From NCBI GenBank assembly GCA_016178945.1, contig JACOSH010000566.1, forward strand, positions 1-45,691: a DNA stretch of 45,691 bases, given 5' to 3'. This DNA comes from Acidobacteriota bacterium (GTDB lineage: Bacteria; Acidobacteriota; Terriglobia; Bryobacterales; Bryobacteraceae). The notes under the pieces are model-generated. The model searched no databases. It worked only from the letters and a program-made list of their open reading frames with translations, and was not told the origin of the DNA. A program made the translations under genes and the position numbers. Below are positions 35,729 through 45,101 of this stretch, piece by piece (the first letter of the stretch is position 1; the number at the start of each line of letters is the position of its first letter).

Positions 35729-36601
35729 ATGTCCGATTCCCAAAGCAGCTCTCCCCGCGTGCCCTGGATGGCGATCGTGTGGTTTGGCGCGCTCCTGATC
35801 GCCTGCTACGCGCCGGTGCTGGCGCGCCTGGTGAAGCAGTGGGAGAACGACGAAGACATGGGTCATGGCTTCTTCGTGCCCGTGATCGCCGCCTACATCG
35901 CCTGGCAGAAGCGCGAGGAGATCCTCAACGCGGTCGGCGCGCCCAACGGCTGGGGCCTGATGCTGGTGATCTACTCGGCCGTCCAGCTCACGGTCGCGAC
36001 TCTGGGGGCCGAGATCTTCCTGGCGCGCACCGCCTTCGTGCTGGCGGCCATCGGGGCGTTTCTCTACCTGGGAGGAACCGGCGCGGTGCGGGCTCTGGCC
36101 TTCCCGCTCTTCCTGCTGTTCTTCATGATCCCGATTCCGAACATCTTCTACAACATGATCACGTTCCCGCTGCAGATTCTGGCCAGCCAGATGGCCGAGT
36201 TCGTCCTTATGTTCCTGGGCTTCCCGGTGCTGCGCGAGGGCAATGTCCTGGAATTAGCCGGCCAGCGTTTGCAGGTGGTGGAAGCGTGCAGCGGAATCCG
36301 GTCGCTGCTCTCGTTGAGCTTCCTCTCGTTGGTCTACGGGTATTTCTTTGAAAACCGGATGGGGATGCGGGTGACGCTGTTTTTCCTGACCGTACCGGTG
36401 GCCCTGGTGGCCAACGCCAGCCGCGTGACCACCACGGGCGTCCTGAGCGAGATCCGGCCGGAGCTGGCCCGCGGCTTCTTTCACAGCGCCTCGGGCTGGG
36501 TGATTTTCATGGTGGCCCTGCTGCTCCTGGTGGCGATCCATCAGGCCCTGACCCTGTTCCACAGATACATTTATGGCAAACGGCAGCTTCCTTCCGAGTA
36601 A
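35729..36601 (+). CDS. exosortase (EpsH-type transpeptidase)
   Basis: The ATG at 35729 is preferred to the upstream TTG. The 290-residue protein has about eight membrane spans. The catalytic triad of exosortases is visible: C187 in VEACSGIRSL, R232 in NASRVTTTG and H252 in FFHSASGW. Exosortases process PEP-CTERM sorting signals at the inner membrane and usually sit in exopolysaccharide loci. Here only epsI accompanies it, with a 29-bp overlap. No PEP-CTERM target was noticed in the window. Near the N-terminus MGHGFFVPVIAAYIAWQKR is a typical family segment. Confidence 0.93.
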   Translation: MSDSQSSSPRVPWMAIVWFGALLIACYAPVLARLVKQWENDEDMGHGFFVPVIAAYIAWQKREEILNAVGAPNGWGLMLVIYSAVQLTVATLGAEIFLARTAFVLAAIGAFLYLGGTGAVRALAFPLFLLFFMIPIPNIFYNMITFPLQILASQMAEFVLMFLGFPVLREGNVLELAGQRLQVVEACSGIRSLLSLSFLSLVYGYFFENRMGMRVTLFFLTVPVALVANASRVTTTGVLSEIRPELARGFFHSASGWVIFMVALLLLVAIHQALTLFHRYIYGKRQLPSE

Positions 36602-37238
36602 GCAGGCCAAGATTCTCACCGTGGCCCTGTTGGCTCAGGGCGCGCTGTTCTATGCCACCTCGCGCACCGAGGCCGCCGTTCACGCGCTTCCCCTGCGCGA
36701 GTTCCCCCTGCGCGCCGGCGACTGGGTGACGGCGCGCGAAGGCTACGTCGACGAAGAGACCCAGTCCGTGCTGCGAGCCGACGACACCCTGACCCGCACC
36801 TACGCGCATTCCGATCAACGGCGGGCGGCGCAATTGTTCGTAGCCTTCTTCAAGACCCAACGCACCGGCCAGAAACCGCATTCCCCCAAGAACTGCCTGC
36901 CCGGCTCCGGATGGGAGATGACGCGCCCGGGGCGCATCCAGGTCGCCGTGGCGGGCGAGCCTCGGCCGATTGAGATCAACAAGTACCTGGTGACGCACGG
37001 CGAGGAGCGCAGCATCGTTCTCTACTGGTATCAGACCAGCAATCGCATCATCGCCAGCGAATACTCGGCGATGTACTGGCTGATCGCCGATTCCATCCGC
37101 TACAACCGCACCGACACGGCGCTGGTCCGGGTGGTGTCGCCGGTGGCCGGCAATGACGAAGACGCCGCCGTCCAGACCGGTGTCGAGTTTGTCCAGGCCT
37201 TCTACCCGAGCCTGCGCCGGCAGCTTTGGCCCGAGTAA
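36573..37238 (+). CDS. epsI: EpsI-family exosortase-associated protein
   Basis: The protein of 221 residues has one N-terminal membrane anchor (KILTVALLAQGALFYATS) and an EpsI domain facing the periplasm. Typical phrases are LPLREFPLRAGDW, VAFFKTQRTGQKPHSPKNCLPGSGW and VLYWYQTSNRIIASEYSAMYW. EpsI is found with exosortase and is thought to assist sorting or polysaccharide export; its exact activity is not known. It starts inside the exosortase gene and ends 33 bp before zwf. The downstream genes are metabolic, so any shared transcript is uncertain. Confidence 0.9.
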   Translation: MANGSFLPSKQAKILTVALLAQGALFYATSRTEAAVHALPLREFPLRAGDWVTAREGYVDEETQSVLRADDTLTRTYAHSDQRRAAQLFVAFFKTQRTGQKPHSPKNCLPGSGWEMTRPGRIQVAVAGEPRPIEINKYLVTHGEERSIVLYWYQTSNRIIASEYSAMYWLIADSIRYNRTDTALVRVVSPVAGNDEDAAVQTGVEFVQAFYPSLRRQLWPE

Positions 37239-37271
37239 TTCGGGGCCCGGCTTTCTGCTAAATTTGAAGCC

Positions 37272-38792
37272 ATGCCCACGGAGAATCCGTTTCAGGACCC
37301 GCTGCGCTTTGAGCGGCGCGTGCCGGAGTGCACGGTCGTCATCTTCGGGGCCAACGGGGACCTGACCAAACGGAAGCTGCTGCCCGCGCTCTACCGGCTG
37401 ATGTACGAGCGTCGATTGTCGCCGGGCTTCGCCGTGGTGGGGATCTCGCGGACGGCGATGAGCGACGATCAGTTCCGCGACAAGATGCGCGACCCGGTGT
37501 CCCGCTACCTGGAAGATTCTCCGTTCGACGAGGACGTCTGGAAGGGCTTCGCGCAGGGCCTGTTCTATATGTCCGGCGACGTAGCCGACCCGGCCGCCTA
37601 TGCCGCGCTGGCCGCGCGCCTCCGGGAGATCGAACAGACGCGCAAGACGGGCGGCAATGTCCTGTTCTACCTGTCCACGCAGCCCAGCCAGTACGCCATC
37701 GCCGCCGCCGGGCTGGGCGCGGCGGGGATCGCCAACGGCCAAGGCTGGCGCCGGCTGGTGGTGGAAAAGCCTTTCGGGTCCGACCTGGGGAGCGCCCGCG
37801 CCCTCAGCCACAAACTGCAAGAGGTGTTCGCCGAGTCGGACGTCTACCGGATCGATCACTACCTGGGCAAGGAGACGGTCCAGAATATCCTGGCATTCCG
37901 TTTCGGCAACGGCATCTTCGAGCCGCTGTGGAACCGCCGCTACGTCAACCATGTCCAGATCACCGCGGCGGAGTCCATCGGGGTGGAGGGCCGCGGCGCC
38001 TACTATCAGGAATCGGGCGCGCTGCGGGACATGATCCAGAACCATCTGCTGCAGGTGATGGCCACCATCGCGATGGAGCCCAGCGCCACTTTCGAGCCCG
38101 GCGCGGTGCGCGACGAGCGCGCCAAGCTGCTGCGCTCCATCCGGGTCATGAAATCCGGCGAGGTACGCGAGAACGCGGTGGCCGGCCAGTACGGTCCGGC
38201 CCGGATCGGCGGCGCCGAAGTGCCCGGCTTCCGCCAGGAAGCGGGCGTGGCCCCCGATGCCCGCATTGACACCTACGCCGCGGTCACCTTCTTCGTCGAC
38301 AATTGGCGCTGGGCCGGCGTGCCCTTCTACATTCGGACCGGCAAGCGCCTGCCCAAACGCGTCAGCGAGATCGCCATTCAGTTCAACGACGCGCCGCATT
38401 CGGTCTTCGGGGGCAACGGCGATGGGACCACGCCGAATCTGCTCATTCTGCGCATCCAGCCGGAAGAGGGCATCTCGCTCAAGTTCCTCTCCAAGCAGCC
38501 CGGGGCCGGGATGAACCTGCGACCGGTGTCAATGGACTTCAATTACGGCTCCAGCTTCGGCGAGCGCTCACCCTCGGCGTACGAGACTCTGCTGCTGGAC
38601 GCCATCCAGGGCGACGCCACGCTCTACACCCGGCAGGACATGGTGGAGGCGAGCTGGCAGGCCGTCGAGCCCATTCTGCACGTGTGGCGGAACCAGCAGC
38701 CGGACTTCCCCAACTACGCCGCGGGAACCTGGGGACCGCCAGCCTCCGACCAGATGCTGGCACGGCGGGGCCACGCCTGGAGACGCATATGA
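37272..38792 (+). CDS. zwf: glucose-6-phosphate 1-dehydrogenase
   Basis: The 506-residue length is standard. The N-terminal NADP site is VIFGANGDLTKRKLLPALYRL. The active-site signature RIDHYLGKETVQNIL contains the substrate-binding D195-H196-Y197 and K200; EKPF and the later YIRTGKRLPKR are also typical. It oxidises glucose 6-phosphate to 6-phosphoglucono-1,5-lactone, making NADPH for the oxidative pentose phosphate path. Its stop overlaps the opcA start by ATGA, and opcA overlaps pgl the same way, so three consecutive functions are translated together. Confidence 0.98.
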   Translation: MPTENPFQDPLRFERRVPECTVVIFGANGDLTKRKLLPALYRLMYERRLSPGFAVVGISRTAMSDDQFRDKMRDPVSRYLEDSPFDEDVWKGFAQGLFYMSGDVADPAAYAALAARLREIEQTRKTGGNVLFYLSTQPSQYAIAAAGLGAAGIANGQGWRRLVVEKPFGSDLGSARALSHKLQEVFAESDVYRIDHYLGKETVQNILAFRFGNGIFEPLWNRRYVNHVQITAAESIGVEGRGAYYQESGALRDMIQNHLLQVMATIAMEPSATFEPGAVRDERAKLLRSIRVMKSGEVRENAVAGQYGPARIGGAEVPGFRQEAGVAPDARIDTYAAVTFFVDNWRWAGVPFYIRTGKRLPKRVSEIAIQFNDAPHSVFGGNGDGTTPNLLILRIQPEEGISLKFLSKQPGAGMNLRPVSMDFNYGSSFGERSPSAYETLLLDAIQGDATLYTRQDMVEASWQAVEPILHVWRNQQPDFPNYAAGTWGPPASDQMLARRGHAWRRI

Positions 38793-39799
38793 CGGCCACC
38801 ATCCAGCCCGAGCGCATCCTGCGCGAGCTGGCCGATCTGTGGGTGTCGCTGGCCCAGGAGCACGAGCCTTCGACCGGCGTGCTACGCGCCTGCGCCATGA
38901 CGCTGGTGGTGCTGGCCGAGGCCGAAGAAGATCCCGCCGGCGTGGGCGAGACTCTGGCCGCCCTCATGCGCGATCATCCCAGTCGCGCCATCGTGGTGCG
39001 CGTGGATGGCGCGGGCCAGCCTCTGAGCGCACGGGTGCTGGCCCAGTGCTGGATGCCGTTCGGCAGCCGGCAGCAGATCTGCTGCGAGCAGATCGAGATC
39101 TCCGCCACCGAGCAGGCGTTGACAGAAGTGGCCGCCGTGGTCCTTCCGCTGACGGCGGCGGACCTGCCGGTGATCCTGTGGTGCCGCATTCCGCGCCTGG
39201 TCGCCTCGCCCGGGTTCAGCGAGTTTGCGCGCCTGGCCACCAAGACCATCGTGGATAGCGCCGCGGCCCCCGACCCACGGATCGCCCTCCGCCAGGTCGC
39301 CGGGCTGATCGCCGGAGGCCAACTGCTGGCCGACCTGCCCTGGACAAGGCTCACGCGCTGGCGCGAGCTGATCGCCCAGGTCTTTGAGAACCCGGTCTAT
39401 TTCGCCCATCTATCGGCGATCAGTGAGGTCAAGATTGTGCATGCCGGCGCGGCCGCTCCGGTGTCGGCGTGGTACCTGGCGGCGTGGCTGCGGAACTGCC
39501 TGGAAAAGGCGGGCAGCCGTCCCCGCATTGGATTTGAGACCACCTCCGACCGGATTGCCGGCAACCTGGGCCACGTGGAGCTGTTCGCCCCGGACTTCCA
39601 CCTGTCCCTGGGCCGCGTGGACGGCTCGGCGGCCGAGATTCGCGTCAACTCCCTGGTCAGCCGCACCGTGTTCGCCAAGCCGAACGAGTACGAGCAACTG
39701 CGCGAGGAGCTGTCCATCTCCGGGCGCGACCCGGTCTTCGAGGAAAGCCTGGCGCTGGCTGCTAAGCTGGTAATCGAGGAGCCCGGGCCGCATCCATGA
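38789..39799 (+). CDS. opcA: OpcA-like glucose-6-phosphate dehydrogenase assembly protein
   Basis: The ATG at 38789 overlaps the zwf stop and gives 336 residues. The larger frame beginning at 38303 lies inside zwf and is a shadow. Family features include TLVVLAEAEEDP, RAIVVRVDG, the Cys-containing SRQQICCEQIEI, and LPLTAADLPVILWCRIPR. OpcA helps assemble and activate Zwf and mediates redox control in cyanobacteria and actinobacteria. Its place between zwf and pgl fits this role. The C-terminal third (RPRIGFETTSDR onward) is less conserved. Confidence 0.88.
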   Translation: MTATIQPERILRELADLWVSLAQEHEPSTGVLRACAMTLVVLAEAEEDPAGVGETLAALMRDHPSRAIVVRVDGAGQPLSARVLAQCWMPFGSRQQICCEQIEISATEQALTEVAAVVLPLTAADLPVILWCRIPRLVASPGFSEFARLATKTIVDSAAAPDPRIALRQVAGLIAGGQLLADLPWTRLTRWRELIAQVFENPVYFAHLSAISEVKIVHAGAAAPVSAWYLAAWLRNCLEKAGSRPRIGFETTSDRIAGNLGHVELFAPDFHLSLGRVDGSAAEIRVNSLVSRTVFAKPNEYEQLREELSISGRDPVFEESLALAAKLVIEEPGPHP

Positions 39800-40524
39800 G
39801 CGTTCGCTGGCATTCCTACCCCGACCCCCGCGCGACCGCCGAGGCCTGCGCGCACCACATCCTGGCGCTGCTGGAGGATTCGCTAGCCGGCAACGATCAG
39901 GCGACGCTGGCGGTGTCCGGCGGCAGCACGCCCAAGCTGCTGTTCGAGCATTTGGTGGCGGCGCGCTTCCGCTGGGACCGCGTCCATCTGTTCTGGGTCG
40001 ACGAGCGCGCCGTCCCGCCCTCCGACCCCCAAAGCAACTACCGCCTCGCCAACGAGTCGTTCATCGGTCCGGCCGGCTTCCCCAGGCGCAATGTCCATCG
40101 CATTCCGGCGGAGCTGGTGGCGGAGCGCGCCGCCGAGCACTACGCCGACGATATCCGCCGCTTCTTCGGCATCGAGGAGGGCGATCTACCGCACTTCGAC
40201 GTGGTGCAGCAAGGCTTGGGCGCCGACGCCCACACCGCCAGCCTGTTCCCAGGCGAGCCCCGCATCGAAGATCGCGACTGCGTGGCCGCCGCGGTGCACG
40301 TCGAAAAGCTGGGCCAGTGGCGGATCACGCTGCTGCCCGGCGTGCTGCTGGCCGCGCGCCACAGCGTCTTTCTGGTCACCGGCGCGGACAAGGCGGAAGC
40401 CGTGGGCGCGGTCTTTCACGAGGAGTATCAGCCTTCACGCTTTCCGGCGCAGGTGGTGTCGCACCACGGCCGCCGCGTGGCCTGGTTTCTGGATCAGGCG
40501 GCGGCGCGCCTGATGGAGGAGTGA
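39796..40524 (+). CDS. pgl: 6-phosphogluconolactonase
   Basis: The protein of 242 residues has the NagB/DevB fold. VSGGSTPKLLFEHL is the phosphate loop, HLFWVDERAVPPSDPQSNYRLA carries the catalytic segment, and GLGADAHTASLFPG has the histidine used in hydrolysis. It opens 6-phosphogluconolactone to 6-phosphogluconate in the cytoplasm. It is the last gene of the zwf-opcA-pgl operon, and its stop is only 5 bp from the convergent CRTAC1-like gene. Confidence 0.96.
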   Translation: MSVRWHSYPDPRATAEACAHHILALLEDSLAGNDQATLAVSGGSTPKLLFEHLVAARFRWDRVHLFWVDERAVPPSDPQSNYRLANESFIGPAGFPRRNVHRIPAELVAERAAEHYADDIRRFFGIEEGDLPHFDVVQQGLGADAHTASLFPGEPRIEDRDCVAAAVHVEKLGQWRITLLPGVLLAARHSVFLVTGADKAEAVGAVFHEEYQPSRFPAQVVSHHGRRVAWFLDQAAARLMEE

Positions 40525-40529
40525 CCGCC

Positions 40530-42164
40530 TTACCGGTCCTCTTCCTGCTGTCTCACGAACACGATCCGCCGCGCCTTGACGCCGGCGACCGTCTGCTTCT
40601 TTCCCCCCGGCCACCAGATCTCCAGCCGGTCCGGCGCCTGCCCCTTGGGAGCGCCGAAGTGAACGCCAAAATGGCTGGATGAGGCGTATCCCACGGCGCT
40701 GGTCATCACGTTCCACTGATTTCCCCACCGGAGGCGCGCGCCGATGCCGTCGCGGTTCGACCACACGCCCTCCAGTTTCACGATCAGCCACTCGCCATCG
40801 GTCTCGGAGATGTTCTCCCACAACTCCGCCGCTTCGCCCAGAGCGGACACCACCACGTCGATCTTGCCATCGCCGTTGAAATCGGCGAACGCCGCGCCCC
40901 GGTGCGCGCGCGCCGCCTGGAAACCTTGGCCCGCTTCGGCCGTGCCGTCGCGGAAGCTTCCATTTTCGTTGAGGAAAATGCTGTTGGCGAGCCTGTAGCG
41001 GGTCGGCTCGAACTGCTCCACCAGGTCGTTGACGTGCGAGTTTGCGGTGAACAGATCCTTCCAGCCGTCCAGGTTGAAATCGAACAGGCCGTTGCCCCAG
41101 CCGCTGATCCGCGCGCTCGACCGGCCCAGACGGCTCGAATAGGTCGCGTCGCGGAATCCGCCCTTGCCCGTGTTGCGGAACAGCGGGTAGGTTTCACCGA
41201 ACAGCGCCGTCACGCTCACATCCGGCCAGCCGTCATTGTCGTAGTCGCGGAAGTCCGCGCCCATGCTGGCGACCGGTTTTCCGCTGTCCAGCAGCGCCAC
41301 GCCGGCCGCCAACCCGGTCTCTTCGAACTTTCCGTTGCCCAGGTTGCGGAACAGGAAGTTCGGCTCGTTATCGTTGGTGACGAACGCGTCGATGAAGCCG
41401 TCGCCGTCGTAATCGGCGAAGGCGACGCTCATGCCCCGCCCGGCATGGCGTCCCACGCCGGACGCTTCGCTGACATCCTCGAACTTGCCGCCGCCGAGAT
41501 TCCGGTAGAGCCGGTTGGGAAGACCTTGAAAGTATTTCGGGTGGCAGTAGATCCGGATTCTCTTCTCCGAGTCCCCACAGAAGCGGTCGGAGGCCGGAGG
41601 CCACTGGGCATAGTGCACGATCCACAGATCCAGCCGCCCGTCGTTGTCGAAGTCCAGCCAGCCCGCCGCCACGGCCCACTGGTCGTCGTGGATGCCGGCC
41701 TTGGCGGTGACGTCTTCGAACTTCCCGTTGCCGAGATTGCGGTACAGCCGGCTGCCGCCGACTCCCGCGACAAACAGGTCCACCAGGCCGTCGTTGTCAA
41801 AATCGGCCGCCGCCGCGCCCATCGAATAGCCCTCGCCGGCCAGTCCCGCCTCCCGGGTGACGTCGGTGAACTTCATGCCGCCCTCGTTGCGGTAGAGCCG
41901 GTTCCAGTACTTCGGCGACTCTTTTCGCATGGACGGAATCGCGGCCCCGTTGGTGAAGAAGATGTCGGTGCGGCCATCCTGGTTATAGTCGAAGGCCGCC
42001 ACGCCCCCGATCATCGTCTCGATCATGCGCTTCTCGGGTGTGGCGGAATTCTCCAGCACGAACCGTAGCCCGGCGGCATCGGCAACATCCCGGAAGCGCA
42101 CCGGCGGCGCCGGACCGGCGGCGAGCAGGGCGCACGCTGACAGGAGCAGGCGGAAGCAGCGCAT
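40530..42164 (-). CDS. secreted CRTAC1/FG-GAP repeat protein with UnbV domain
   Basis: Starting at the ATG at 42164 gives a short signal peptide (MRCFRLLLSACALLAAGPAP). A seven-bladed propeller follows, made of repeats with calcium loops: DYNQDGRTD, DFDNDGLVD, DFDNDGRLD, DYDGDGFID, DYDNDGWPD, DFNLDGWKD and DFNGDGKID. The C-terminal ASPIC/UnbV domain (HFGVHFGAPKGQAPDRLEIWWPGG) is normal for CRTAC1 proteins. The total is 544 residues. These exported proteins are very numerous in Acidobacteria and Planctomycetes and have no proven function; adhesion or ligand binding is likely. The start is 28 bp from the divergent ankyrin gene. An alternative ATG at 42194 would overlap that gene's start. Confidence 0.92.
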   Translation of the reverse strand: MRCFRLLLSACALLAAGPAPPVRFRDVADAAGLRFVLENSATPEKRMIETMIGGVAAFDYNQDGRTDIFFTNGAAIPSMRKESPKYWNRLYRNEGGMKFTDVTREAGLAGEGYSMGAAAADFDNDGLVDLFVAGVGGSRLYRNLGNGKFEDVTAKAGIHDDQWAVAAGWLDFDNDGRLDLWIVHYAQWPPASDRFCGDSEKRIRIYCHPKYFQGLPNRLYRNLGGGKFEDVSEASGVGRHAGRGMSVAFADYDGDGFIDAFVTNDNEPNFLFRNLGNGKFEETGLAAGVALLDSGKPVASMGADFRDYDNDGWPDVSVTALFGETYPLFRNTGKGGFRDATYSSRLGRSSARISGWGNGLFDFNLDGWKDLFTANSHVNDLVEQFEPTRYRLANSIFLNENGSFRDGTAEAGQGFQAARAHRGAAFADFNGDGKIDVVVSALGEAAELWENISETDGEWLIVKLEGVWSNRDGIGARLRWGNQWNVMTSAVGYASSSHFGVHFGAPKGQAPDRLEIWWPGGKKQTVAGVKARRIVFVRQQEEDR

Positions 42165-42192: not shown

Positions 42193-44037
42193 ATGAGATT
42201 TCGGGGATGGGCGGTGTGCGCGATTCTTCCGGCCCTGCACGCGCAGATGGACTCGCCAAAGCGGCTTCGCGCGTCCGCGACCCGATCCGTCGAGCTGCTC
42301 CAGCGTGCCGCGACGGGCTTCTACAAATCCCAGGATTGCTTCTCATGCCACAGCTACGGGTTGCCCATGCTGGTGTTCCGGACCGCCCGCGAGCGGGGAA
42401 TCCCGGTGGACGAGGCGGCCGCGCATGCGGCGGCCGTCAAGGGCCTCGCCCACAATCCGGATTTCACCTCCATCGACCGCGCCATCCAGAGCATTGCGGT
42501 CAGCGATCCGCTCCAGGCGGGATGGGCTCTGCTCGCCGTCGAAGCGGCCGGGCTCCGTCCCAACCTGGTCACGGCGATCTACGCGCGCCTGAGCGCCAAC
42601 TGGCAGCATCCGGACGGGCGCTGGACGACGCTGGATACTCGACCTCCGCAATCGAACAGCGAGTTCACCGCCACGGCCGTCACGCTTCGCGCGATTGCGC
42701 TGCATGCGCCCGAGACGATGCGGAAGGAAGTCGCGGAGCGATCCCAGAGAGCCCGGAAGTGGTTTCTGGCGGCCCAGCCGCGAACGACCGAGGACTACAC
42801 GTTCCGTCTGTTCGGTCTGACCTGGGCCGGGGCGCCGGCGGCGGAGCGTTCCGGGCCGGCTCGGGATTTGCTCCGCCTGCAGCGTCCCAATGGCGGCTGG
42901 GCGCAGATTCCGCGAATGGAGCCCGACGCGTATTCGACCGGCGAAGCGCTGGTCGCTCTGGCCGAGGGCGGCGGAATCGCGGTAACCGATGCGGCCTGGA
43001 AAAAGGGGTTGAGCTTCCTTCTCTCGTCGCAGAAGACCGATGGTTCCTGGCACGTTCCGACACGCATGGTTTCCCCGGCTCAGGTCAGCCCGCCGTACTT
43101 CGAGACCGGATTCCCGCACGGCAAGGACCAGGTCCTCTCCACCATGGCGACGTCCTGGGCGGCCCTGGCGGTGATGCGGGCCCTGGACAAAGTGGATCAC
43201 CCCGCGGCGCCCCTCCCCTTGCCGGAGCTCGCTCCCAAGGACCCCAAGCCGTGGATGGAGACCGTGCTTTTCGGCACGGCCGGGCAATTGAAGGCGCACC
43301 TGGACCACGGCCTTGATCCCAATACGAAAACCGCGGAAGGCACCAGCTTGTTGATGGCGGCGGCCCCCGACGCGGCGAAAGTGAAACTGTTGGTCGAGCG
43401 GGGAGCGGATGTGAAAGCCAAGGCGAAGTCCAGGTACACGGCCCTGATGTGCGCCTCGCTGTACCGCGGGACCTCGGACATCCTCAAGGTCCTGCTGGTC
43501 AAGGGGGCGGAGGCGGCGCCTGGCCCCGGAGTGATGTTCAGCGCTTCTCCCTTGTTTCTGGCGGCCCTGGCTGGTGATCCGGAAAACATTACGCTCTTGC
43601 GATCCAAAGGCGCCGACCCGAACCGAAAGATGATACTGTTCGGGTTCTTTCCGAGCAGCGCGCTGCTGACCGCGGTTACCTTCGGTGATCCGGAGGTAGT
43701 CAAAGCCCTGGTGGCCGCCGGCGCCGATGTCCGCGAGAAAGACCCGGATGGAATGAGCGCCCTGCACTGGGCCGCCCTCTCCGATCACGTGGGCGTCACC
43801 CGGGTGTTGGTGGAGGCTGGAGGCCTCCTGAACGCCACCGACAAGCATGGATATACGCCCCTAATGTATGCCGCCACGGTCGATTTCGGCAGCGCGGAAA
43901 TGGTGTCGGCGCTGCTGAACGCCGGCGCCGATCCCCAGGTCAGGAACAAGGACGGAAGAACCGCCCTGGCGCAAGCCAAACATTATCGCTACGCGCACAT
44001 CCAAACCGCCCTGGAACAATCAGGCGCGCGCGAGTAA
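42193..44037 (+). CDS. exported protein: CXXCH motif, terpenoid-cyclase-like toroid and ankyrin repeats
   Basis: The ATG at 42193 opens a signal peptide ending PALHAQ; a longer frame from 42025 overlaps the divergent gene and is rejected. The 614-residue protein has a single haem-c motif, C49-F-S-C52-H53, near the N-terminus. A helical region follows with squalene-cyclase/prenyltransferase-like repeats (GWALLAVEAAGLRPN, NWQHPDGRW, LLRLQRPNGGWAQI, SFLLSSQKTDGSWHV), ending near residue 340. The last 260 residues hold about six ankyrin repeats (AEGTSLLMAAA, SRYTALMCASL, GMSALHWAAL, HGYTPLMYAAT, GRTALAQAK). Similar fusions occur in Acidobacteria and Planctomycetes. Haem attachment and function are unproven. 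Confidence 0.85.
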   Translation: MRFRGWAVCAILPALHAQMDSPKRLRASATRSVELLQRAATGFYKSQDCFSCHSYGLPMLVFRTARERGIPVDEAAAHAAAVKGLAHNPDFTSIDRAIQSIAVSDPLQAGWALLAVEAAGLRPNLVTAIYARLSANWQHPDGRWTTLDTRPPQSNSEFTATAVTLRAIALHAPETMRKEVAERSQRARKWFLAAQPRTTEDYTFRLFGLTWAGAPAAERSGPARDLLRLQRPNGGWAQIPRMEPDAYSTGEALVALAEGGGIAVTDAAWKKGLSFLLSSQKTDGSWHVPTRMVSPAQVSPPYFETGFPHGKDQVLSTMATSWAALAVMRALDKVDHPAAPLPLPELAPKDPKPWMETVLFGTAGQLKAHLDHGLDPNTKTAEGTSLLMAAAPDAAKVKLLVERGADVKAKAKSRYTALMCASLYRGTSDILKVLLVKGAEAAPGPGVMFSASPLFLAALAGDPENITLLRSKGADPNRKMILFGFFPSSALLTAVTFGDPEVVKALVAAGADVREKDPDGMSALHWAALSDHVGVTRVLVEAGGLLNATDKHGYTPLMYAATVDFGSAEMVSALLNAGADPQVRNKDGRTALAQAKHYRYAHIQTALEQSGARE

Positions 44038-44114: not shown

Positions 44115-45101
44115 CTAACGTCCGACCACCAGCACCCTAAACGTCCCAGGCTTCACGCGCCCCCGCTGCCCCGGAACCGGCTCCATCTCGGCGGTCGGAA
44201 GGAACAGTTTCCCGGTCTTCGGATCGAACGCCATGGTCTTGGCGCCCTGCTGGGTAGGGATCGTGCCGGCCGCCTCATAGACATCGGCCGACTTCTGCCG
44301 GATCACGCTAATATTCCCTTCCCCGTTGGAAAAAAACGCCAGCTTACTCTTCGGGTCAAACGCCGCCGCGTCCACGCCCGTGCCGATGGGCAGGGTCGCG
44401 ATCACCTTGCCGGTATCGGAGTTCATCACCGCCGCCACCTTGCTCCGGCAGCCGATGAAGATCCGGTGCGTGCGGTTATCCATGGCGAAACCGGTGGGAG
44501 TCTGGCAGCCGGCGATCGGAAAGCGGGCCGTGATCTCGAGCGTCTTCGGATTCACTCGCGCCACTTCCGAGGTGTCTTCCACGGGAATGTAGACCATGCC
44601 GTCGGGCCCGGTTGCCATGGCCTCGCCATCGCCTTTCAAGTCGATGACGCCCGCCACGTCTCCGGTTTTCGCGTCGATCACGGTCACATCGTGCGAGCCG
44701 TGATTGGTCACGAACACGCGTCCGGACCCCTCATCGTAGTAGATCGCATCCGGGCCCTTGCCCACCGGCACTTTCTTGATCAATGCCAGAGTCTCGGAAT
44801 CGAACACCGAAACCATGTTCTCGGCGCCGTTACTGGTGAATCCGCGCTTGAACTTGGCGGCAAGCGCCACACCGTGGATTCCCGGCGTGCCCTCGACCTT
44901 GCCCACCGGCTTACCCGTGTCCGCGTCGATGACGTCGGCTTGCGGCCCGTGCGACAGGTACAGGCGGCGGGCCTGGGAGTCGAGCGTAATATAGTCCCAG
45001 CGGCCCTCGCCGGCCACGGGATAGCGGGTCTGGACTTTGTAGTCCGACGCGGTCTGCCCCAGGAGCAGACCGGCAACCAGGAACAAGATGATTCGGCGCA
45101 T
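44115..45101 (-). CDS. exported YncE-like beta-propeller protein
   Basis: The start at 45101 (MRRIILFLVAGLLLGQTAS) gives a signal peptide, and 328 residues in all. The mature part is a seven-bladed propeller of the YncE/cytochrome-cd1-like type, with repeats such as LYLSHGPQADVIDADTGK, VSVFDSETLALIKKVPVG, VFVTNHGSHDVTVIDAKTG, VAAVMNSDTGKVIATLPIG and LAFFSNGEGNISVIRQ. Such proteins are secreted or periplasmic, and many have no known ligand; DNA or metabolite binding has been suggested for YncE. No cytochrome motif is seen. A terminator follows downstream. Confidence 0.88.
   Translation of the reverse strand: MRRIILFLVAGLLLGQTASDYKVQTRYPVAGEGRWDYITLDSQARRLYLSHGPQADVIDADTGKPVGKVEGTPGIHGVALAAKFKRGFTSNGAENMVSVFDSETLALIKKVPVGKGPDAIYYDEGSGRVFVTNHGSHDVTVIDAKTGDVAGVIDLKGDGEAMATGPDGMVYIPVEDTSEVARVNPKTLEITARFPIAGCQTPTGFAMDNRTHRIFIGCRSKVAAVMNSDTGKVIATLPIGTGVDAAAFDPKSKLAFFSNGEGNISVIRQKSADVYEAAGTIPTQQGAKTMAFDPKTGKLFLPTAEMEPVPGQRGRVKPGTFRVLVVGR

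Follow-up and report, generated by a model that had tools for sequence, protein, structure and literature searches.

The stretch of DNA analyzed here, referred to as the window, is 45,691 nucleotides long and derives from a bacterium of the phylum Acidobacteriota. Near its end lies a gene whose predicted product of 614 residues combines an export signal, a helical toroid with a CXXCH motif, and an array of ankyrin repeats. The features of the locus are as follows.

40530-42164, reverse strand: FG-GAP/UnbV-ASPIC protein, divergent neighbor, no recurring pair (Pfam; recurrence by blastp)
42193-44037, forward strand: whole gene, signal peptide plus haem-motif toroid plus ankyrin array (614 residues; AlphaFold2 pLDDT 94.2, pTM 0.93)
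42193-42243, forward strand: putative signal peptide, residues 1-17 (by reading; similar starts in five orthologues)
42256-43185, forward strand: α/α toroid, residues 22-331, squalene-cyclase-like fold with three QW motifs and without DxDD (profiles, AlphaFold2, fold comparison)
42337-42351, forward strand: CXXCH haem c motif, residues 49-53 (128 of 129 complete toroids, one with CX3CH; helix borders from the AlphaFold2 model)
42640-42648, forward strand: R150-P151-P152, loop between helices 5 and 6 on the CXXCH side (R150 in 128, P151 in 120 and P152 in all 129 toroids)
42925-42933, forward strand: D245-A246-Y247, start of inner helix 10 on the CXXCH side (D245 in 124 and Y247 in 120 of 129)
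43063-43065, forward strand: R291, long loop between helices 11 and 12 on the CXXCH side (127 of 129)
43117-43119, forward strand: H309, candidate distal haem ligand, not strictly conserved (His in 81, Tyr in 37, Phe in 9 and Gly in 2 of 129)
43237-44028, forward strand: ankyrin array, residues 349-612, about eight helix pairs (Pfam, AlphaFold2, fold match)
44115-45101, reverse strand: YncE-like β-propeller, convergent neighbor, not recurring (Pfam; recurrence by blastp)

Gene start and export signal

An earlier note on this DNA, made from the sequence alone, had described the open reading frame, its coordinates and its motif, all of which stand as given, and had proposed a signal peptide. Residues 1-17, MRFRGWAVCAILPALHA, are followed by Q18 and by reading fit such a peptide. 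The start at position 42193 is supported because the five nearest orthologues listed share the N-terminal pattern of the window protein, namely a methionine, one or two basic residues, and a hydrophobic stretch leading to A-Q. In 65 of the 66 toroid-first members of the family (motif no more than 140 residues from the frame start), a crude test of hydrophobicity places a hydrophobic stretch ahead of the motif. By this crude measure the signal-peptide-like start expected of a c-type haem protein is present, and the window protein is probably exported to the periplasm.

The toroid and its relation to the terpene cyclases

The AlphaFold2 model, which was built from 81 sequences with the confidence scores listed above, consists of a toroid followed by the ankyrin array. 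Residues 22-331 are predicted to form 12 helices arranged as six helix pairs, and the toroid modelled alone gave a pLDDT of 92.8. Such a prediction had been called for in the earlier note, which had recognized squalene-cyclase-like repeats lacking an obvious catalytic DxDD, and both parts of that description hold at the level of the family. The window protein matches the Pfam model SQHop_cyclase_C with an E-value of 0.0025 and 17.3 bits, below the cut-off of 26.1; the same model is matched at an E-value of 0.01 or better by 81 of 81 aligned family members, some of which exceed the cut-off (27.3 bits for the paralogue L002). A profile of 66 family members finds squalene-hopene cyclase with an E-value of 4.3e-30. 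The window toroid reaches the cut-off of no Pfam or NCBIfam model, and the curated cyclase cut-offs are missed by the window protein (20.3 bits versus 431.1 for TIGR01507 and 27.7 versus 322.7 for TIGR01787). The DxDD motif is absent from all 129 toroids of the family set described below, the window protein included, and is present in the squalene-hopene cyclase of the same genome.

When the full model was compared with known folds, the matches included oxidosqualene cyclase (Z 23.1, rmsd 3.3, 274 aligned residues), squalene-hopene cyclase (Z 22.4) and drimenyl diphosphate synthase (Z 22.3). Squalene-hopene cyclase, as represented by 2sqc, matches the two models with Z scores of 22.4 and 22.7. 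The window protein resembles the class II terpene cyclases in its α/α toroid, its three QW motifs, and its Z scores of 22-23 to oxidosqualene and squalene-hopene cyclases. When the toroid alone was searched, these cyclases again ranked first (Z up to 22.9), ahead of GH105 at 20.4 and complement C4 at 20.0. Because the GH105 and complement domains lie only 2-3 Z units below the cyclases, the predicted fold by itself is no indication of a terpenoid.

An hhalign comparison of the toroid with squalene-hopene cyclase gave a probability of 98.4 and an E-value of 4.3e-15, with slips in register between the internal repeats. The end points of the structural alignment pair residues 22-334 of the model with residues 8-630 of squalene-hopene cyclase. 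The CXXCH motif would accordingly sit where two-domain cyclases appear to insert their second (gamma) domain, a position that we take to be equivalent from the general layout of these enzymes; because the repeats slip the sequence register, the placement is drawn from the structural end points and that layout only.

Position and conservation of the CXXCH motif

The window protein contains a single CXXCH, formed by C49-F-S-C52-H53. From the composition of the protein 0.00067 copies would be expected by chance, and the motif arose in 41 of 100,000 shuffled sequences. In both AlphaFold2 models C49 belongs to the loop that follows helix 1 of the toroid (residues 22-46), and C52 and H53 are positioned at the start of helix 2 (residues 52-67). 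The layout in the earlier note is thus retained in part: there is one CXXCH and it is on the N-terminal side, but it lies inside the toroid, at the turn between helices 1 and 2, rather than ahead of the cyclase-like region. Since the motif falls within the toroid, it is the cyclase-type domain that would carry a haem.

On that placement in both models, a separate cytochrome domain ahead of the toroid was rejected, and no cytochrome family was found on the window protein with Pfam up to an E-value of 1. In the region of the motif the family profile weakly matches a cytochrome c555 construct (summed E-value 1.8e-5, with no individual stretch passing by itself), as would fit a grafted cytochrome fragment.

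Conservation was assessed with 129 distinct complete toroids, 73 from 80 pattern-search loci and 56 from whole-genome searches. Duplicate sequences entered the set a single time, and incomplete toroids, such as L122, L133, L136, L149 and the split frames of L134 and L165, were excluded beforehand. The full CXXCH is present in 128 of these toroids, and the remaining one (L084:4977-6806) has CX3CH. One of the two patterns used in the pattern search itself contained CXXCH, so that its 80 loci, and with them 73 of the 129 toroids, are biased toward the motif. At loci fetched with a motif-free query (residues 92-331) the motif is present in 26 of 26 complete toroids; these searches gave loci for the best matches only, and some of the 26, including two paralogues from the window's own genome, were also reached by other queries. 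The earlier note had let its haem proposal stand or fall with the conservation of the CXXCH among homologues, and conserved it is, as would be expected of a c-type haem protein.

Among other positions of the toroid, in addition to the residues listed above, W286 is found in 129 of 129 toroids and Q313 in 122. Across the 129 toroids there is no strictly conserved histidine or methionine that could serve as a sixth ligand. Conservation in at least 90% of the sequences is reached by 30 of 155 positions on the side that bears the CXXCH and by 5 of 76 on the opposite side (Fisher p 0.011), and the five on the side away from the motif are only Ala, Gly and Leu. Without the QW and CXXCH positions the difference is 16 of 139 versus 5 of 76 (p 0.34), and the loops of the two sides show no difference in mean information content (p 0.86). 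The test for a conserved face is significant only with the QW and CXXCH positions counted.

The ankyrin array and the architectures of the family

The C-terminal ankyrin array recognized in the earlier note is unequivocal, with a Pfam Ank_2 E-value of 4.5e-32, a fold match of Z 23, and repeats in tandem. Searches of the window protein against a defence-system library gave matches only to ankyrin-carrying models.

The 129 toroids occur in several architectures, as labelled with small profiles of our own and by adjacency within 200 bases. The arrangement of the window protein, toroid-ankyrin, is seen in 42, followed by PSCyt1-ankyrin-toroid (22), ankyrin-toroid (22), toroid plus adjacent ankyrin gene (7) and ankyrin-toroid-PSCyt1 (4); the 32 toroids without a detected ankyrin constitute an upper bound, the next frame in L060, for example, being ankyrin-like. 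Ankyrin repeats are therefore encoded in the toroid gene itself or beside it for 97 of the 129 toroids, and PSCyt1 for 33. The PSCyt1 domain was confirmed with Pfam in L002, L003, L035, L050, L081, L030 and L033, and the adjacent PSCyt1-ankyrin genes in L003, L030 and L033.

As can be seen from these arrangements, the modules are permuted among siblings or split into adjacent genes. A quick family tree, calculated without bootstrap, needs 15 architecture changes versus a minimum of 5, with 42 of its 126 inner branches poorly supported. In this tree the window protein belongs to a six-member clade, all toroid-ankyrin, with an SH-aLRT value of 97. Relatives in its own genome include a permuted paralogue (L002), a split pair (L003) and a toroid-only gene (L015). 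A more distant relative in the same genome (L211:100-3273, ~1057 residues) contains a CVACH motif, a SQHop_cyclase_C region, HEAT repeats and a C-terminal CVHCH, and so presents the proposed toroid-haem layout with HEAT repeats in place of ankyrin. Elsewhere, a toroid is fused to a β-lactamase-family domain (L073:4521-7145) and another to dienelactone-hydrolase/peptidase S9 domains (L090:4875-8234).

Genomic context and distribution

The start of the FG-GAP/UnbV-ASPIC gene is separated by 28 bases from that of the toroid gene, and its product is one of 18 such matches in the genome. Further upstream (36573-40524) the genes look by reading like a pentose-phosphate cluster, encoding glucose-6-phosphate dehydrogenase, an OpcA-like protein and 6-phosphogluconolactonase. 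Among 878 home-made gene calls at 99 loci of relatives, blastp at an E-value of 1e-8 found no match to either of the window's two immediate neighbors, and the FG-GAP/UnbV and YncE-like genes were rejected as conserved operon partners. The commonest neighbor cluster occurs at 11 of the 99 loci. Twenty selected neighbors were run against Pfam. The neighboring genes name no substrate, and the single suggestive context, that of the RoxA-like di-haem genes described below, is seen in only 2 genomes.

Several individual contexts may be recorded. DUF1501 genes (L047:3371-4729 and L028:3308-4834) lie just upstream of toroid-only genes, and a DUF1552 gene (L071:2944-4212) is similarly placed. On what is, to judge by its length, one contig, RoxA-like di-haem genes (PF21419, ~500 residues) are interleaved with toroid genes (L025, L026, L184, L163), with neighboring frames overlapping by 1 base in L025, and at L086 a RoxA-like gene adjoins a toroid gene. 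All complete RoxA-like genes here carry two CXXCH motifs; when three of these neighbors were scanned, one passed the PF21419 cut-off and two fell just below it. Viewed from the RoxA-like side, 1 of 20 loci has a toroid in its flanks, and 19 are without one within 1.5 kb. An operon partnership with RoxA-like proteins, seen in two genomes only, was not built upon.

Matches at an E-value of 1e-10 were found in 125 of 200 genomes of the window's family and in 8 of 297 in a sample of the phylum, the window's own genome being included in both. The toroid family is therefore frequent among close relatives of the window's organism and patchily distributed at greater distances. Named records with the toroid belong to the Acidobacteriota, Planctomycetota, Verrucomicrobiota, Armatimonadota and Gemmatimonadota. 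The window's own genome has two Cytochrom_C_asm (PF01578) matches above the cut-off and 34 PSCyt1 matches, with which haem c could be made and its attachment would be possible in this host.

Proposed function

The window protein is very probably a c-type haem protein on an unexpected fold. Covalent attachment of haem to the toroid is the best reading, and one in which we place considerable confidence, because the CXXCH is consistent across the family, an export signal precedes it, and the toroid is linked to PSCyt1. Cysteine-histidine sites bind zinc in other proteins, and the CXXCH could in principle do so here, as a zinc or structural site in a protein that carries no haem. Set against this are the full order of the motif in all but the one toroid with CX3CH, the export signal, the PSCyt1 linkage, and the cytochrome c assembly genes in the genome, and we regard a zinc or structural site as very unlikely.

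What the haem would do is less certain, and sequence cannot choose between an enzyme, a sensor and an electron carrier. There is about an even chance, in our estimation, that the protein is a periplasmic mono-haem c protein that works at the toroid mouth, probably by redox catalysis or by binding a haem ligand, and whose ankyrin arm docks a partner. Thioether bonds to C49 and C52 would fix the haem, and H53 would provide the proximal ligand. The haem would be positioned at the mouth of a single squalene-cyclase-type α/α toroid without DxDD, where it would face the same-side loop residues R150, P152, D245, Y247, R291 and Q313. Since no histidine or methionine is strictly conserved as a sixth ligand, the haem is expected to be open or weakly ligated and, at the toroid mouth, to bind or oxidize some small ligand or substrate. 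That feature, along with the conservation of R150, D245, Y247, R291 and Q313, suggests that a ligand or substrate meets the haem there. The simplest reading of the ankyrin array is that of an arm that would dock a partner protein, given that it may precede or follow the toroid or be encoded by a separate gene. The PSCyt1 domain, which in some siblings is fused or next door, would plausibly feed or remove electrons.

Were the toroid haem instead to bind NO, O2 or CO, the ankyrin array might relay the resulting change to a partner, and the protein would be a haem-based gas or redox sensor, in line with the redox or ligand sensor suggested in the earlier note. The haem c Cache domains, for which such a relay has been proposed, offer a parallel, NO sensors being reported to result from a CXXCH grafted into a non-cytochrome fold (PMC12889525, a preprint), and a sixth ligand that is not strictly conserved fits this idea as well. 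A sensor is nevertheless improbable: Pfam detects no signalling or output domain, either in the window protein itself or among ten scanned fusion and paralogue proteins, and the window's neighbors do not recur. The occurrence of PSCyt1 on the same or an adjacent gene, together with a histidine or tyrosine at position 309 in 118 of the 129 toroids, could be accommodated by a simple electron carrier, in which a six-coordinate haem would shuttle electrons between PSCyt1-type cytochromes and other enzymes and the toroid would be a scaffold. The conservation of R150, P152, D245 and R291 goes beyond the apparent needs of a scaffold, and 11 of the 129 toroids have phenylalanine or glycine at position 309; a carrier function is likewise considered unlikely.

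The earlier note had stated that an exported ankyrin protein has no known role, which is too strong, since support of haem catalases has been reported for periplasmic AnkB and Cj1386 (PMC7567364, PMC10294975). By analogy, the window protein might be an accessory factor for a periplasmic haem enzyme, either as a haem donor or as a stabilizer of a catalase or peroxidase, and at one locus a peroxiredoxin gene (L043:3619-4347; AhpC/TSA, 1-Cys type) is followed after 32 bases by an ankyrin-toroid gene. Haem that is covalently bound could not be passed on, however, and no catalase is found among the window's neighbors or the 20 selected neighbors run against Pfam, so that such a role is considered very unlikely.

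A bolder extension of the proposed redox or ligand-binding role at the toroid mouth is conceivable, albeit doubtful. The c-type haem grafted into the turn between helices 1 and 2 might have made the old cyclase cavity the pocket of an exported oxidoreductase, for which an isoprenoid or a sugar may be cited as examples of possible substrates. The ankyrin or HEAT arm and PSCyt1 would then be interchangeable docking and wiring modules of a new class of haem enzymes.

If haem is bound, the family would provide a c-type haem protein on a fold without a haem link in the searches made here, and another example, in addition to the haem Cache domains, of a haem motif hosted by a fold other than that of a cytochrome. 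The titles and abstract openings of the open-access literature searched contain no description of a haem-carrying toroid. The family occurs in the Acidobacteriota, Planctomycetota, Verrucomicrobiota and others, where planctomycete-type cytochromes are presented as having no assigned function (PMC5615132). The toroid is a well-predicted domain with named residues for tests of function, namely C49, C52, H53, R150, D245, Y247, R291 and H309.

Comparison with known systems

The class II terpene cyclases, including the squalene-hopene cyclases, oxidosqualene cyclases, drimenyl diphosphate synthases, MstE and the single-domain enzymes 8paj and 8pak, resemble the window protein in their toroid and QW motifs and provide its best fold and profile matches. 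The window toroid differs in that it lacks both DxDD and a gamma domain, is apparently exported, carries the CXXCH at the turn between helices 1 and 2, and shows 14-20% identity. The same toroid is seen in the thioester domains of complement and α-macroglobulins (C4Adg, Z 20.0), in which the reactive thioester is also located between helices 1 and 2. The window toroid has the CXXCH rather than the thioester motif, and there is no complement-like surrounding chain. The GH105/GH88 unsaturated glucuronyl hydrolases and other (α/α)6 sugar enzymes share the barrel topology with Z scores of about 19-20, whereas identity is about 7-13%.

The exported ankyrin proteins AnkB and Cj1386 are tied to haem enzymes and are reported to act with catalases (PMC7567364, PMC10294975). 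The window gene, in contrast, is flanked by genes for FG-GAP/UnbV and YncE-like proteins rather than by one for a catalase. We know of no toroid or CXXCH in AnkB or Cj1386. The RoxA-like di-haem proteins (PF21419), operon-like neighbors of toroids in two genomes, belong to a different protein family.

The PSCyt1 (PF07635) planctomycete cytochromes are haem c domains from the same phyla that are fused to, or lie beside, siblings of the window protein; PSCyt1 is a separate small domain and is absent from the window protein itself. PSCyt domains are presented as lacking an assigned function; they often lie close to sulfatases and in some cases occur together with carbohydrate-binding modules (PMC5615132). 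A parallel in principle is sCache_heme (DUF3365/Tll0287), reported in a 2026 preprint, in which a c-type haem motif lies inside the Cache sensor fold and so likewise in an exported, non-cytochrome domain (PMC12889525). The two differ in their folds, that of sCache_heme being Cache and that of the window protein being predicted, with high confidence, to be a helical toroid.
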